Of a stretch of DNA of 48,527 nt, positions 8,043-18,454 are shown piece by piece (within the stretch, counting starts at the first letter, position 1; the number at the start of each line of letters is the position of its first letter). Under the pieces are notes generated by a model that worked only from the letters and a program-made list of their open reading frames with translations, did not search any database and was not told the DNA's origin. The stretch covers positions 14,742 to 63,268 of the forward strand of contig JALTBO010000098.1 of assembly GCA_027075275.1 (NCBI GenBank), given 5' to 3'. The translations under genes were made by a program, and so were the position numbers. The DNA comes from Desulfurobacteriaceae bacterium (GTDB lineage: Bacteria; Aquificota; Aquificia; Desulfurobacteriales; Desulfurobacteriaceae).

Positions 8043-8285
8043 TTGAGAACCTATACAATTCGGCTGGACGACCGGTTCTTTGAGTTGCTTGAAGAACTTT
8101 CAAGGAAAACGAGAGCTCCCAAAAGTTCTGTTGTGAAGAGAGCTCTTCTTCTTTATAAACAAGAGCTTGAGAAAGAGGAAATGCTAAGGAATTTAATTGA
8201 ATCTGCTGAAGAACTTTCCAATGACCCTGAAAATCTGAAAGATATTGTAGAGTTAGAGGGAACGGTATCTGATGGGCTTGATTAG
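8043..8285 (+). CDS. Ribbon-helix-helix antitoxin
   Basis: RTYTIRLDDRFFELLEELSRKTRAPKSSVVKRAL RHH pattern; GGAGG upstream of TTG start. Confidence 0.85.
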   Translation: MRTYTIRLDDRFFELLEELSRKTRAPKSSVVKRALLLYKQELEKEEMLRNLIESAEELSNDPENLKDIVELEGTVSDGLD

Positions 8286-8622
8286 GGGAGGTATTTACTT
8301 AGCAAAACTCAGTCCTACAAAGGGAGCAGAACCTGGAAAGATAAGACCTGTAGTTATTGTTCAGAGGCAGGAAATTCTTGAAATATATCCTACTGTTCTT
8401 GTAGTTCCTTTAACCTCAAACTTAAAGGGTAAGTATCCTATGAGGCTTTTTATTAAAGCGAGGGAAAGACTTGAGAAAGATTCGGCTATTATGGTAGACC
8501 AGATGAGAGCCATTGACGTATCAAGGCTTATCCCGGATAGGATAGCTTCTCTTACGGTGGAAGAGATGGAGAAGTTGGAAAAAGCTATTTGCTTTTTTAT
8601 CGGATCTGATGACAGAATTTAA
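8272..8622 (+). CDS. MazF/PemK-family endoribonuclease toxin
   Basis: RGGIYLAKLSPTKGAEPGKIRPVVIVQ...VVPLTS...DQMRAIDVSRL; overlaps antitoxin ORF. Confidence 0.93.
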   Translation: MGLIRGGIYLAKLSPTKGAEPGKIRPVVIVQRQEILEIYPTVLVVPLTSNLKGKYPMRLFIKARERLEKDSAIMVDQMRAIDVSRLIPDRIASLTVEEMEKLEKAICFFIGSDDRI

Positions 8623-8653: not shown

Positions 8654-10234
8654 CTATCTGCTTAAGAGAACTATCAGCTGAACCATAATTCCAACAAAGA
8701 GGGTTAAGGCCAGAACGGGCAAAATCAGGGTTTTGAGGAGCTCCCCCTCTTCTTTCCCCTTAACTCCAACCAAGGCGGCAGCGTTTGTCACCTTAGAGGG
8801 AGTTATTGCGCTTGCGATTCCCCCTGCAACTGCGTGGGCTCCGTAGATGGCCATGAAAGCGGGAGCTCCCACCGTTGAAACAACAGCTCCGTACTGAATC
8901 TTTGCAAAGAGAACGTTTGATGCAGTTTCACTTCCCCCTACGAAAGCCCCAAGGAGCCCTAAGAACGGAGAGATCAGCGGGTAGAGGTTTCCAAACCAGT
9001 CGGCAAAGGTCTTTCCGATTATGAAGTCCATATTGAGCTCTTTAAAGTTTGCCATTGGGTGGAGCTTTCCACCTACAAATTCCATTCCAGACCATGCCAT
9101 TATGAACGCAACTGCAAAGAAGAGGGAATAGGCAAGGAAAGGCCCCCAAACTCTCTTTATCCAGACGTTCAGGGCTCTGCTGAACTGCTCCTTTGTGGGC
9201 TTCAGGAAAGGAATTGAGACGATTATTGAAACGAAGATCCAGAAGTAGACGTGGGCCAGGACGTTCAGATCAACCTTCTTTCCTGCAACTGTGAAAACTT
9301 CTAAGTTCCCCGGTAGGGAGGCCAGGAACTTCTTAACGGGCGGGTAGTTTGTTATGAGTGAGAAGAAAAAAAGGAAAATCCAAGGAGAGGCGGCCTTCAG
9401 GAAATCGGAGTCTAACTTGACCTTTCCTTCTCCGTTCTTCCTATACATGTAGTAAGAGACAACCATTGTTGTAAGGCCTGCAATTATTCCTATAACCTCA
9501 ACGGGAACGATTTTCGTAAAGGCCAAAAAGAGGGCAGTTAGCGATAGAACGAGGCCTGCGACTGTTGCCCCCAACCAGTGCTTCCTTATTGATCTCCACC
9601 CGCCGACGAAGTAGAGCATCATAAAGGCAAATCCTACAGAGACCACCGGCAGGAATACTGTTATGTGTTGCGTGAAGCTCCAGATGAAGTGGTCAAGGTT
9701 CTTTATTCCCGGAGGGTGAATTCCAAAGGGCCCCCAGGCAACGTGGGCAGGCAGGGTTATTGGGATTGAGAGGAGTGCAAAGGATGTTAGAGGGTCGTAG
9801 CAGAGGACTGAGATTGCAACGGCCGCCAACGGTGTAAACCCTAAAGCTACGAAAACGGGAGGAAACAGGGCAGGAGTTACAACCCCTAAGGATGTAGCTA
9901 AAGAGCCGAACCCCATTCCTATGAAGAGTGTCTGCTGGACTTTGTCCTTCGTTATTGAAAGGATCGTTTTTACGATTTCGTCTAAGGCTCCGGTCTCTTT
10001 CATGAGGAATATCATGAACATAGTAAAGGCAACGGCGAACGTTATTGCAAAGGCCTTAACTATTCCGTAAACGCTCGCTCCCCAAACAACTGAAAGTGGC
10101 GTCTTGAAGTAGAGCCAGGCAACAAGCCCTGCGAATATCCAGCCGACAACTGACATAAAGACCCCTGAACGGGAAAAGAGGAGCATTCCAATTAGAACTA
10201 TTAGAATGGGGAGAACTGCCATGAGGAAGTCCAT
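8654..10234 (-). CDS. lldP: L-lactate permease family transporter
   Basis: Polytopic; GGSETASNVLFAKIQ, AITPSKVTNAAALVG. Confidence 0.9.
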   Translation of the reverse strand: MDFLMAVLPILIVLIGMLLFSRSGVFMSVVGWIFAGLVAWLYFKTPLSVVWGASVYGIVKAFAITFAVAFTMFMIFLMKETGALDEIVKTILSITKDKVQQTLFIGMGFGSLATSLGVVTPALFPPVFVALGFTPLAAVAISVLCYDPLTSFALLSIPITLPAHVAWGPFGIHPPGIKNLDHFIWSFTQHITVFLPVVSVGFAFMMLYFVGGWRSIRKHWLGATVAGLVLSLTALFLAFTKIVPVEVIGIIAGLTTMVVSYYMYRKNGEGKVKLDSDFLKAASPWIFLFFFSLITNYPPVKKFLASLPGNLEVFTVAGKKVDLNVLAHVYFWIFVSIIVSIPFLKPTKEQFSRALNVWIKRVWGPFLAYSLFFAVAFIMAWSGMEFVGGKLHPMANFKELNMDFIIGKTFADWFGNLYPLISPFLGLLGAFVGGSETASNVLFAKIQYGAVVSTVGAPAFMAIYGAHAVAGGIASAITPSKVTNAAALVGVKGKEEGELLKTLILPVLALTLFVGIMVQLIVLLSR

Positions 10235-12091: not shown

Positions 12092-13354
12092 ATGTTCCAG
12101 AGGCGCCTTGAGACGTTAGAGAGGGAGCTCCTTGAGAAAATCCAGCTTGAAAGGCTCAGGAAAACGGTTCAGAGGATAAAGGAGAAGAACGAAAAATACT
12201 GGGAGAAGATTGGAAGAGTTGAGCCTGAGGATATAAAGAGTTTAGAGGATCTGAAAAGACTACCCTTTTTAACAAAGGAAGACTTGAGGCAGAACTACCC
12301 CTTTGGCCTTGCCTGCGGTGAAAAGTGCGAGTTTGTCAGGTTTCACATGTCCTCCGGAACTACTGGAACTCCGGTAGTTAACCCCTACACTCCAAACGAC
12401 GTTGAACAGTGGGGAGAGGTTATGGCAAGGTGCCTCTCCGCTGCAGGCCTTAGCTATACAGATGTTCTTCAGATTACCCCTTCCTTTGGCCTCTTCAACG
12501 GAGGTTTCGGCTTCCACTACGGAGCAGAGAAGATTGGCTGTTTTGTGGTTCCCATTGGCCCCGGAAGGAGCCTCCTTCAGCTGAAGTTCATGCAAGACTT
12601 CGGGACTACAGCCCTTGCAGGTATAGCCTCTTACGCCATAAGGCTCTTAGAGGTTGCTAAAGAGGAAGGGTTTGACTTCTCAGAAACGAACCTTAAGGTG
12701 GGAATTTTCGGCGCTGAAGTCTGGGGCAACGAGATGCGCCGCTACATAGAGAGAGAGATGGGGATTGAGACCTTTGACATTATTGGGATGACAGAGACAG
12801 GTGGAGTTGGATTGGGTATAGACTGCAGTGCCCACTCGGGAATCCACGTGTGGGAAGACCACTACATCGTTGAGATCATTGACCCTGAAACAGGTGAGGT
12901 TCTGCCAGACGGAGAGGAAGGAGAGCTTGTTGTAACAACTCTAACGAGGGAAGGGCTTCCACTTATCAGATACAGGACGAGGGACATAACCAAGGTTGTT
13001 TCAAGGGAGAGGTGCGACTGCGGAAGAACTTACCTGAGGCTTGACAGGATAAAGGGAAGAACAGACGACATGCTGAAGGTTAAGGGCGTCTGCTTCTACC
13101 CCAGGCAGGTTGAAGAAGTGATAATGAAGTACCCTGAAGTCCTTCCAAACTATCAGATAATCATCGGAAAGGTTGAGGGTAAAGATACTGTTGAGGTTGT
13201 TATTGAGTCTGAGAGGCAGGACGAGAGCCTGAAGGAGAGAATAGAGGAGGAAATTTACAGCCTTTTAGGCCTTCACATAAAGGTAACCCTCAAGAAGAAG
13301 GGAGAGATACCGAGGAGTGAGGGGAAGGCCGTGAGGGTTAAAAAGTTCAATTAG
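12092..13354 (+). CDS. Phenylacetate-CoA ligase family protein (second paralog)
   Basis: HMSSGTTGTPVVNPYT, GRTDDMLKVKGVCFYPRQVE; divergent from 10702-12009. Confidence 0.93.
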   Translation: MFQRRLETLERELLEKIQLERLRKTVQRIKEKNEKYWEKIGRVEPEDIKSLEDLKRLPFLTKEDLRQNYPFGLACGEKCEFVRFHMSSGTTGTPVVNPYTPNDVEQWGEVMARCLSAAGLSYTDVLQITPSFGLFNGGFGFHYGAEKIGCFVVPIGPGRSLLQLKFMQDFGTTALAGIASYAIRLLEVAKEEGFDFSETNLKVGIFGAEVWGNEMRRYIEREMGIETFDIIGMTETGGVGLGIDCSAHSGIHVWEDHYIVEIIDPETGEVLPDGEEGELVVTTLTREGLPLIRYRTRDITKVVSRERCDCGRTYLRLDRIKGRTDDMLKVKGVCFYPRQVEEVIMKYPEVLPNYQIIIGKVEGKDTVEVVIESERQDESLKERIEEEIYSLLGLHIKVTLKKKGEIPRSEGKAVRVKKFN

Positions 13355-14813: not shown

Positions 14814-14827
14814 GGGGGGCCTGGAGT

Positions 14828-15211
14828 ATGGAGGAGTGTTTCTGGAGGACCTGCCTCTACCTATCATCCGTTGATAGGGCAGGGGAGCTCCTTAAGTTTG
14901 ACCTTGGCAGGCGTATGAGGAGGCCATTCTTAACTTTAGGTAAATACACCTTTGGGAACTCCCTCATTGCCGTGTTTCTGACAGCTCAGGAGAGGAAGGG
15001 GAGGCCCTCTGTTAACATTGATAAGTGTGATAAATCTAAGTGCAAAGATTTCCACTGGAAGGAGAGGGCTTACGTTTATGAGAACAGGGGAAGGAGATAT
15101 CTCCTTATCCCTGTAGAGTTCCTGAAAGACGACGATGCGTTTAAGTTCTGCGGTTACTGTAGTATAGACAACTCTGAAGAGGTAAGGAAATGGGCAAGGG
15201 TGAGGGGTTAA
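14828..15211 (+). CDS. Small putative MazF/PemK-fold protein, first gene of the SAVED cassette
   Basis: RRPFLTLGKYTFGNSLIAVFLTAQERKGRPSVNI resembles RP-x-x-V...PLTS of PemK/MazF; CX4C and CX2C pairs; overlaps next ORF by 22 nt. Confidence 0.45.
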   Translation: MEECFWRTCLYLSSVDRAGELLKFDLGRRMRRPFLTLGKYTFGNSLIAVFLTAQERKGRPSVNIDKCDKSKCKDFHWKERAYVYENRGRRYLLIPVEFLKDDDAFKFCGYCSIDNSEEVRKWARVRG

Positions 15212-16164
15212 GGCTCTCTGAGTCTGAGTTCTTGGAACTCCTAAAAAAAAGGGAGGGGGTTCTGTGGGAAAGGCTGAAATCTCACCTCTCCAACTTCTTA
15301 AAGGATAAAGCCTGTCTGAGGAAGGTTATAGGGGATAAGACGTTAGACTCTCTGCTTTTGGAGGTTCTTGAGAGCCTGACTCCTCAGAAGGTTGGTAGAA
15401 GAGACCTCAACTACCTTCTGGAATCTGCCCTGTTTGACACGTACCTTGAGTCGGTAGCTCAAGACATAGTTTCAGGAAAGTGCAATGGGGAACTCTTCTG
15501 GCTCTTAAGCAGGGCTACAGGCTACATCAAAAAGGAGCTTTTAAGGGTAAAGAGGGAGAGTAAGGATACTTTTAGAAAACTCTGCTCATTTTTAGGAATT
15601 GATGAATCTCTTGAGGGGGAGGAACTCCAGTCTCTCCTCTTCCCCGTGGTGAAGGAGAAGCTCTCCCTCTTCATAGAGAGGGGCTACAGCAACTACATGA
15701 GGCCCCTCTACAGTGCCCTTAAGAACTGGCTCAAAGACCAGATAGAGGCCTCTCTGGCGGCGAAGAGGACTGAAGGGGTTAGGGAAATTCTTTCCCTTGA
15801 TGAATATCTAATGGGAAACGAAGAGGAAGGTGGCTTAATGGTAGAGGACGTTTTATCAGATGAGGATGTTCCTGAAGAGCCCATCAGGTTTATCTGGGTT
15901 GATGATGCAGTTGATGAGCTCTGCCAGGCACTCACCGAGGACGAGCAGAGGCTCCTCTGCTCCATTCTGAGGTGGGAGAACTGCGGGCTTTCGCTCTCTC
16001 AGGATGCTTACTACCAGAGGCGTTCCCGTTTTCAGAGAGGGAAACTGAAGAAGATCCTGAATGGCTGGAAGGATAGAGGTTTTACAGAAGAAGAGATACT
16101 GGAAATTCTTGATTCCTTCTCAGGGTCTGTTTGCAGACGGCTGTGTCAGAAAATTAAGGTTTAA
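15190..16164 (+). CDS. Divergent sigma-70-like protein (CalpS-like candidate)
   Basis: YMRPLYSALKNWLKDQIEAS...REILSLDEYLMGNEEEGGLMVEDVLSDEDVPEEPI followed by DELCQALTEDEQRLLCSIL..LSLSQDAYYQRRSRFQRGKLKKIL, a region 2 / region 4 layout. Confidence 0.55.
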   Translation: MGKGEGLRLSESEFLELLKKREGVLWERLKSHLSNFLKDKACLRKVIGDKTLDSLLLEVLESLTPQKVGRRDLNYLLESALFDTYLESVAQDIVSGKCNGELFWLLSRATGYIKKELLRVKRESKDTFRKLCSFLGIDESLEGEELQSLLFPVVKEKLSLFIERGYSNYMRPLYSALKNWLKDQIEASLAAKRTEGVREILSLDEYLMGNEEEGGLMVEDVLSDEDVPEEPIRFIWVDDAVDELCQALTEDEQRLLCSILRWENCGLSLSQDAYYQRRSRFQRGKLKKILNGWKDRGFTEEEILEILDSFSGSVCRRLCQKIKV

Positions 16165-16200
16165 GCCGTTATCCTTTTTGTGAGATCTCCGGAGGAGAAA

Positions 16201-17031
16201 ATGGGATTGATGAAATACTTAATTGATGATTACAGGCGTTGGGTTTCCGGTGAGGCTTATCGGGAACTTGGTGTTCGAGAGGGAGCTCCTGGTGGCAAGG
16301 TCAGGAAGCTCCGTCCAGAAGTTGGAGATATTTTTGCTCTCTACACAGGAACCCTGCCCCTTTACGTTATGGTTGTTGAGGAGGATGAAGAGTTCCCAAC
16401 TGCTGTAGTTGTTACTCCCCAGTACGAGTTTGCAGGGAAGGAGGACGTTATTTTTAAGTTTGATAACCCCGAGAGCTCCCGCTGGGCTGCAGTTAAAAGT
16501 CTGGTTTTTTCCATCTATAGACCCTTTATTTCTGCCTCCTTTTACCTTGGCAGACCCTCTGAGGAAGAGGTTGGAATAGTTCTTAAGGGTCTGAAGGGAG
16601 AAGAGGTTCCGGCGGGGAGAACTGGTATTGATACAGAGTATGCCAGGGAGTTCAGAGAAATAGAGAAAGAGAGAGTAAAGCCTTTCTTACTTGCAACTGT
16701 TTCAACTTTTACGGAAGAGGTGAGCTCTATTGCCCTGCCTGAGCCCTTTCTTCTGACCATTGAAGAGGCCGGCAAGGTTCCTATGGCTGCAGCTGCCAAA
16801 GAAAGGGTTGTTGATACGCCTTTTGGCTACGTGGTTGAAGAAGGGAACAACGTTACCCTTGTCTTCAAAGAGGAGATTGCAGGTAAGGTAGGGGTTATTA
16901 AAGTTCCTACAGATAGGGGAGACCTTCCCATCTACTACGGGGAGCTCCGTCCCATTGAGTTTGTCAACCTCCCTGAAAGGGTCAGGAAAGCCATGAAGAA
17001 CCTGAAAGTGGAGGTAGAGGGTGAAGTTTGA
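16201..17031 (+). CDS. CalpT-like candidate: MazF-like N-domain, Ala4 linker, C-domain
   Basis: GDIFALYTGTLPLYVMVVEEDEEFPTAVVVTPQYEFAGKEDVIF SH3-like pattern; PMAAAAKERVV linker; SD GGAGGAG before ATG 16201 (track start 16180 is GTG); position between sigma-like and Lon-SAVED genes. Confidence 0.5.
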   Translation: MGLMKYLIDDYRRWVSGEAYRELGVREGAPGGKVRKLRPEVGDIFALYTGTLPLYVMVVEEDEEFPTAVVVTPQYEFAGKEDVIFKFDNPESSRWAAVKSLVFSIYRPFISASFYLGRPSEEEVGIVLKGLKGEEVPAGRTGIDTEYAREFREIEKERVKPFLLATVSTFTEEVSSIALPEPFLLTIEEAGKVPMAAAAKERVVDTPFGYVVEEGNNVTLVFKEEIAGKVGVIKVPTDRGDLPIYYGELRPIEFVNLPERVRKAMKNLKVEVEGEV

Positions 17032-18445
17032 GGTTGAGGAGCTCCTCCGTTTGGGGAAGTTTTCAACGGCCTCTGAGCTCCTGAAGAGTAGGGGAAAGAA
17101 CCTTTCAGGGAAAGATATCGTCTCTCTTCTCAGCAGGGCTTTAGGGAAACCTCTCACTGAAGAGGAGGAACGGTTCTACTTTCTCCTTTTGAAGGAGCTC
17201 CTTTCCAGGCCCAACTGGAAGAAACTCCTCTCAGAGATTGCAGGGATTGGAGATAGGGAGTTTAAAAACTGGTACCTGTTCCGTTTTCCCGTTGTGAACG
17301 ACAGGGGAGAGGGAAGAATTGTAGAGGGTATTCTCATCAAACATACAGGGAAAGGGGGTAGAGTCCTCTTCGGTAAGAAGGTCGACCTGTCGAGGGTTGA
17401 GTCTGCAGCAGGTGAGGGTTTCTTCGTGGTTTTTGAGAGTGGGGAGTTTAAGGGAAACTCCTTTGAGGCTCCTCTCCTCTACACAGTCCTCTACGGTCCC
17501 GTTCCAGAGCCCTTTCTCCTTTCAGGGGTTTTAAAGGGGAACGGGTTTGAGGCCGATGAGGAGGAGGCAAAGAGGAGGCTTGCCCTGAGTGAGGGCAAGG
17601 TTCTCATATCCAGGTCCCGGGATATTTCAAGGCTCAGAGAACTCCTTGAAACGGATGAGGTTCAACTTCCCCTTTTAACTGTAAGGAAGAGTGGACAGCA
17701 GCTAAAACTCTTCTCCAAGGAAGTGTTTAAGGGCTGTAATTACGGTTTGGAGGAGCTGAAATCTTTAGGGCTGACCGATAGGGATTTAACTTTTCAACTC
17801 CCCTCAAACATTCCACCGGGGAACTGGATGGAGTACGTGGTCGGTTTCTCCAAAAAGTTGAGGAGGCTTTCAGATTTTGCCTCAAATCTTGGTAAGAGGT
17901 TCCGATTCCACCTCGGTTTTGACGGCCCTGCCTCCCTGTTTCTGGGTTTTGGTGTTGCAACGGGAATGGTTCCCTTCACTGTCTACCACTACAGGAAGGA
18001 GACTTCAGATTACGTGAGGGTAACCGATTGTACCAGGGACTACAAGGAGAGGACTGAAGAGTTTAGAGAGCTCCGTTTTAGTCTCCTTGAAGGGAAAATG
18101 GAAGAGGCCTGTATAGAGGTTAAGCTGGCTTCACACGAACCATTCTTCCCCAACTGCTCCAGCGTTTTAGAGGTTGAAATTAAGACAAAGAGGGGGAACA
18201 TAGAGCTGGAAAAGTTTGTAGATGTGGTGAGGGAACTCTACAGCTTCTTCAACCTGCTCTACGACAGGGGAGTTAGGAAGTTTAAGGTGATTTTGAGCGT
18301 TCCCGTTGTTGTTGGCTTTCTCCTTGGAACGGCCATTGGAAACTATTGGGACATTGAAGTTTATCAGTACTTTAAACCTGAGGAGAAGGTACTGCCTGTT
18401 TTAAACCTCAGGGAGATAGAAACCTTTGACCGGATTTCTATGTAG
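17021..18445 (+). CDS. Lon-like protease domain fused to SAVED domain (CalpL-like)
   Basis: GEGFFVVFESGEFKGNSFEAPLL...PFLLSGVLKGNGFEADEEEAKRRLALSEGKVLIS (Ser147/Lys184 spaced like a Lon dyad) and SAVED repeats FHLGFDGPASLFLGFGVATGMVPFTVYHY / VILSVPVVVGFLLGTAIGNYWDIEVYQY. Confidence 0.75.
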   Translation: MKFEVEELLRLGKFSTASELLKSRGKNLSGKDIVSLLSRALGKPLTEEEERFYFLLLKELLSRPNWKKLLSEIAGIGDREFKNWYLFRFPVVNDRGEGRIVEGILIKHTGKGGRVLFGKKVDLSRVESAAGEGFFVVFESGEFKGNSFEAPLLYTVLYGPVPEPFLLSGVLKGNGFEADEEEAKRRLALSEGKVLISRSRDISRLRELLETDEVQLPLLTVRKSGQQLKLFSKEVFKGCNYGLEELKSLGLTDRDLTFQLPSNIPPGNWMEYVVGFSKKLRRLSDFASNLGKRFRFHLGFDGPASLFLGFGVATGMVPFTVYHYRKETSDYVRVTDCTRDYKERTEEFRELRFSLLEGKMEEACIEVKLASHEPFFPNCSSVLEVEIKTKRGNIELEKFVDVVRELYSFFNLLYDRGVRKFKVILSVPVVVGFLLGTAIGNYWDIEVYQYFKPEEKVLPVLNLREIETFDRISM

Positions 18446-18454
18446 AGGAACTGA

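Follow-up and report, generated by a model that had tools for sequence, protein, structure and literature searches.

The CalpL/T/S system is an established case of a CRISPR response that acts through the protease-triggered release of a sigma factor. For CalpL of Sulfurihydrogenibium (structures 7qda, 8b0r and 8b0u), mutation tests assigned roles to residues H392, H345, R361, K364 and S391 of the cyclic tetra-adenylate (cA4) site in the SAVED domain, with H392 as the key ring-nuclease residue (PMC11417357). Its partner CalpT is cleaved into pieces of 23 and 10 kDa (PMC9704534), and the 23 kDa fragment has also been described elsewhere (PMC11417357). Two further proteins of known structure are related to this enzyme, namely CCaCalpL from Candidatus Cloacimonas acidaminovorans (9eyi-9eyk), likewise a SAVED-Lon filament protease, and AcrIII-2 (9r8s), a viral inhibitor whose SAVED domain is close to that of CalpL but which lacks a protease domain.

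A further relative of this published family is encoded in the DNA analysed here (the window, a stretch of 48,527 nucleotides from a Desulfurobacteriaceae bacterium). The open reading frame at 17021-18445 of the forward strand, with a GTG start at 17021 and its stop at 18445, specifies 474 residues and is, judged by sequence and predicted fold, a CalpL orthologue, in which a Ser/Lys protease of the Lon type is joined to a SAVED sensor. The initial annotation had described these elements correctly; what goes beyond it is the family name CalpL and the link to the neighbouring genes for CalpT, CalpS and a protein referred to here as X. The main interest of the locus lies in this operon, with its strict fourth gene beside calpS and its compact cassette away from cas genes.

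The window protein consists of a helical N-terminus, a Lon-like protease at approximately residues 80-200 and a C-terminal SAVED sensor at approximately residues 257-462. A phmmer search against PDB sequences returned CalpL (7qda/8b0r) with an E-value of 1.9e-19 over residues 77-461, the viral SAVED protein 9r8s with 1.1e-10 and, as a weak match, CCaCalpL (9eyi) with 4.6e-4. The Lon-SAVED models of PADLOC also matched (SAVED_LON_TM, 3.4e-60; CRISPR-Lon, 5.2e-53), and the SAVED domain first proposed by eye was recovered with both Pfam PF18145 (1.6e-7, above cut-off) and NCBIfam NF033611 (3e-14, residues 257-450). An AlphaFold2 model built from 8 sequences had a mean pLDDT of 76, the protease half being good and parts of SAVED poor, and its best match in a Foldseek search of the PDB was again CalpL 7qda (E 6.9e-24), followed by the CCaCalpL filament structure. 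The domain order, the Ser/Lys dyad and most cA4-site residues are shared with Sulfurihydrogenibium CalpL, whereas identity over the structural alignment is only about 21%; nine CalpL relatives from other Desulfurobacteriaceae are 23-33% identical to the window protein. No CalpL was found in the viral contigs and phage records searched.

Within the protease domain, Ser147 (codon 17459-17461, forward strand) and Lys184 (codon 17570-17572, forward strand), at the very positions given in the initial annotation, are the predicted nucleophile and general base. In the phmmer alignment they fall on S152 and K193, which we take to be the catalytic pair of CalpL, so the Lon-type dyad is more than a by-eye coincidence. 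The near-Lon spacing noticed earlier also holds, with 37 residues between the two positions against 41 in CalpL. Conservation among orthologues, on which the dyad was said to depend, is complete in all sampled sets: both residues are invariant in 10 Desulfurobacteriaceae orthologues (the window protein and its nine relatives) and in a second set of 8 sequences that includes an Aquificaceae bacterium and Persephonella.

Most residues of the SAVED site are kept as well. According to the phmmer residue map, H345, R361, K364, S391, H392 and S451 of CalpL are retained as H323, R339, K342, S371, H372 (codon 18134-18136, forward strand) and S426, while K366 is replaced by Arg. Three further positions are changed, from S325 to A304, R338 to V317 and H474 to Q449; in CalpL itself, the S325A and H474A mutations left the nuclease unaffected (PMC11417357). 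The two-fold repeat that had been suggested within SAVED (residues 296-334 and 422-460) fared unevenly. In the single sequence it did not rise above chance, with 283 of 1000 shuffles scoring equally well, whereas comparison of the two halves as profiles over the 10 orthologues (hhalign) supported it with 94% probability and an E-value of 1e-7, in the same register as originally named.

Upstream of calpL, and all on the same strand, lie gene X, calpS and calpT, where X and calpS overlap by 22 nt, calpS and calpT are separated by 15 nt, and calpT overlaps calpL by 11 nt. The CalpT orthologue (16180-17031, forward strand, 283 aa), predicted to act as an anti-sigma factor with a MazF fold and to be cut by the protease, was matched by the PADLOC models Unk_02 (6e-9) and CRISPR-T (3e-5) and aligns with the calpL-linked genes of 8 relatives, with blastp E-values down to 1.6e-22. 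Residues Ala203-Ala206 (AAAA; 16786-16797, forward strand) form the predicted CalpL cleavage region, in which A204 is invariant in 9 of 9 CalpT sequences; a cut here would release an N-terminal piece of some 23 kDa. The putative CalpS orthologue (15190-16164, forward strand, 324 aa), predicted to be a divergent sigma factor, was recognised by its position and by its C-terminal half, which aligns with the genes at the calpS position in relatives. The window copy is unusually divergent, carrying about 100 extra N-terminal residues compared with its family relatives, and by itself gave no family match in Pfam or PADLOC. Sigma70_r2 was detected in two CalpS relatives only (best 2.8e-5) and not in the window copy, which is also the exception among nine CalpS proteins, the other eight matching the PADLOC 'HTH' model PDLC01153. 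An internal duplication in CalpS suspected by eye was rejected, with 398 of 1000 shuffles scoring as well. Compared with the Sulfurihydrogenibium locus, the S-T-L order, the Ala-rich CalpT cut region and the presence of X are all shared, whereas the window CalpS is about 80 residues longer and no type III locus was found in the window's assembly.

The reading we favour, with a probability of roughly 0.88, is that the open reading frame encodes CalpL and belongs to an antiviral Calp signalling operon with the gene order X-calpS-calpT-calpL. By analogy with characterised CalpL, from which ligand, polymerisation, cleavage and sigma release are all carried over, Cas10 of a type III CRISPR system would make cA4, which SAVED would bind. 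The cA4-bound CalpL would polymerise, its Ser147/Lys184 protease would cut the anti-sigma factor CalpT in the Ala-rich linker, and CalpS, once freed, would redirect transcription. Degradation of cA4 by the same SAVED site may then reset the switch. To this the window itself contributes homology, a conserved dyad, the ring-nuclease residues, a cleavage region and an operon.

The cassette occupies 14814-18454, from the stop codon of a porin gene to the 3′ end of lemA. In two congeners (G005 and G002), whose porin and lemA genes share 73-90% identity with the window copies, the same interval is only about 30 bp long and holds a terminator-like hairpin (L039, approximately 12336-12366; L040, approximately 9812-9843), whereas the window carries the full four-gene cassette without the hairpin. 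The four genes stand together as a compact unit in a chromosomal location devoid of cas genes. Housekeeping genes flank them, and the contig continues for at least 29 kb to the left and for about 30 kb to the right. The base composition of the cassette equals that of its surroundings. The CalpL proteins of the two congeners that possess one are only about 33% identical to that of the window, which favours lateral acquisition of the cassette. A sigma70-like promoter was sought before X and none was seen; transcription by read-through from the porin unit is therefore possible.

The source of the signal requires closer consideration. In the assembly from which the window derives (1.48 Mb in 136 contigs, with 87% completeness), no Cas10, no type III RAMP match and no SMODS cyclase, the last sought as an alternative signal source, was detected. 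Matches to TIGR02578 were rejected as Cas10, all being below cut-off and covering the N-terminal part of the model. What the assembly does have is a type I-B set that looks complete and includes Cas1. On contig C24 (L027), this set comprises Cas6, Cas8, Cas7, Cas5, Cas3, Cas4 and Cas1, the names other than Cas1 having been given by eye. All nine other Desulfurobacteriaceae genomes with calpL have Cas10, encoded within 4 kb of calpL in eight of them and on another contig in the ninth (G016). The cassette of the window lies amid housekeeping genes, whereas every family relative whose contig is long enough has cas10 at most 4 kb away, and this, together with the site left empty in the two congeners, would suit a host without type III CRISPR, in which the cassette senses another messenger source or cA4 from a mobile element. 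Such a self-sufficient cassette appears unlikely, however, as the assembly is fragmented and incomplete and unlinked calpL is common in Aquificota. Outside the family, calpL often lies far from cas10, and all single-contig genomes with calpL have cas10; in four of these (G057, G058, G079 and G119) calpL is 0.14-1.2 Mb from any cas10. The Calp system may therefore often operate at a distance from the type III locus. In addition, three of the ten calpL genomes without a Cas10 match carry RAMPs, indicating that a missing match often reflects an assembly gap. Weighing the missing 13% of the genome against how rarely near-complete genomes have calpL without type III parts, we judge it improbable that the present host truly lacks Cas10.

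The lack of a nearby cas10 and of a recognisable promoter could also be taken to mark the operon as a defunct remnant of a type III locus. Four intact reading frames with short overlaps, the retention of catalytic and binding residues, and a cassette that is compact and intact where congeners have an empty site make such decay very unlikely. Free-standing viral SAVED domains are able to degrade cA4 (PMC12751052), and by this precedent CalpL might be a protease-dead scaffold or a pure cA4 sponge in which SAVED alone works; with Ser147 and Lys184 invariant in every sampled orthologue and the substrate gene calpT retained, we regard this as highly improbable.

Gene X (14828-15211, forward strand, 127 aa) lies directly before calpS, with its stop inside the overlap between the two genes, and homologues are found at the equivalent place in eight Desulfurobacteriaceae loci. 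A survey of 136 genomes from Aquificota gave 42 X matches, of which 35 were located 1.4-2.1 kb upstream of calpL on the same strand. For six of the remaining seven, the contig breaks off just past X or inside the operon: one retains calpS, calpT and the start of calpL (L044), two retain calpS (L045 and L048), and two others, L046 with two X matches and L047, end too soon after X to tell. The seventh (G055) is weak and has internal stops. A renewed search with a broader profile, applied to the upstream DNA of 20 calpL loci without an X match in the first pass, revealed X in 15 (once at a contig end), each time directly before calpS; among the rest, three offered too little sequence for a verdict and two (L080 and L086) had neither X nor calpS.

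In total, 33 distinct loci carry both calpS and X, one of them (L033) with X recognised by position and motif and not by the first profile, and no locus carries calpS without X. Three calpL loci have neither (L019, L080 and L086). L019 is a solitary calpL that is also without calpT, and L080 and L086 retain a calpT-like gene. The 33 include the locus of the crystallised CalpL (L042), which has the order X-S-T-L with X at L042:2292-2837 and whose CalpL matches 7qda with 1064 bits over residues 2-496. The fact that X tracks calpS in every examined locus, including the one from which the structures were derived, points to a missing part of the system. We infer from this co-occurrence and from the gene overlap that X is a partner of CalpS.

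Searches with X against PDB sequences gave nothing meaningful, and clues to its nature come from conserved residues and from modelling. In an alignment of 42 rows, a few of which are duplicate loci, R32, P33 and a Thr/Ser at position 52 (T52 in the window) are present in 42 of 42, and the zinc-knuckle-like cysteines C67, C72, C108 and C111 in 40-42 of 42. By motif, the Arg of the RP pair and the Thr presumably correspond to active-site residues of MazF. MazF, PemK and CcdB belong to one fold superfamily. A provisional model of X from seven sequences reached a pLDDT of 88 in one of five AlphaFold2 runs, compared with 39-51 in the others, and its top two Foldseek matches in a viral library were PemK/MazF proteins (E 0.022, probability 0.99; E 0.12, probability 0.90); against the PDB, CcdB ranked top with a non-significant E-value of 1.6. 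A PemK/MazF-like fold is thus a lead of moderate strength from modelling, which sequence profiles did not confirm. In comparison with the PemK/MazF and CcdB toxins, X shares RP and Thr/Ser with MazF, whereas it has four extra conserved cysteines and shows no significant sequence match to them. Part of the X family, 7 of 24 X proteins, is covered by the PADLOC family C3a162 (best 2.3e-60; a weak 0.044 for the window X), which gives no function, fold or operon role; a text search of the literature for the name C3a162 found no paper.

Taken as a whole, X may be an overlooked obligate fourth component of Calp, a zinc-knuckle protein with a PemK/MazF fold whose gene is closely coupled with calpS. 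Its part would be to guard CalpS or to act as an RNase that the response sets free. On this view, CalpT would be a degenerate member of the MazF fold, with X keeping the Arg and the Thr/Ser. This proposal is tentative, and we put its chances slightly below even.

Two other relationships of X were considered and set aside. As a paralogue of CalpT, X found no profile support (hhalign probability of about 1%), and comparison by profile with the window's own MazF gave a probability of 1.7%, the aligned stretch being the RP/Thr region. The latter gene, a MazF/PemK-type toxin by sequence, is located at 8272-8622 of the window and is 92% identical in the congener G005. Several genomes of genus g16 carry tandem X copies upstream of calpS (L046, L052 and L067), and the Persephonella-type X (L033:5442-6125, L077, L078 and L082) has an added N-terminal stretch resembling a coiled coil.
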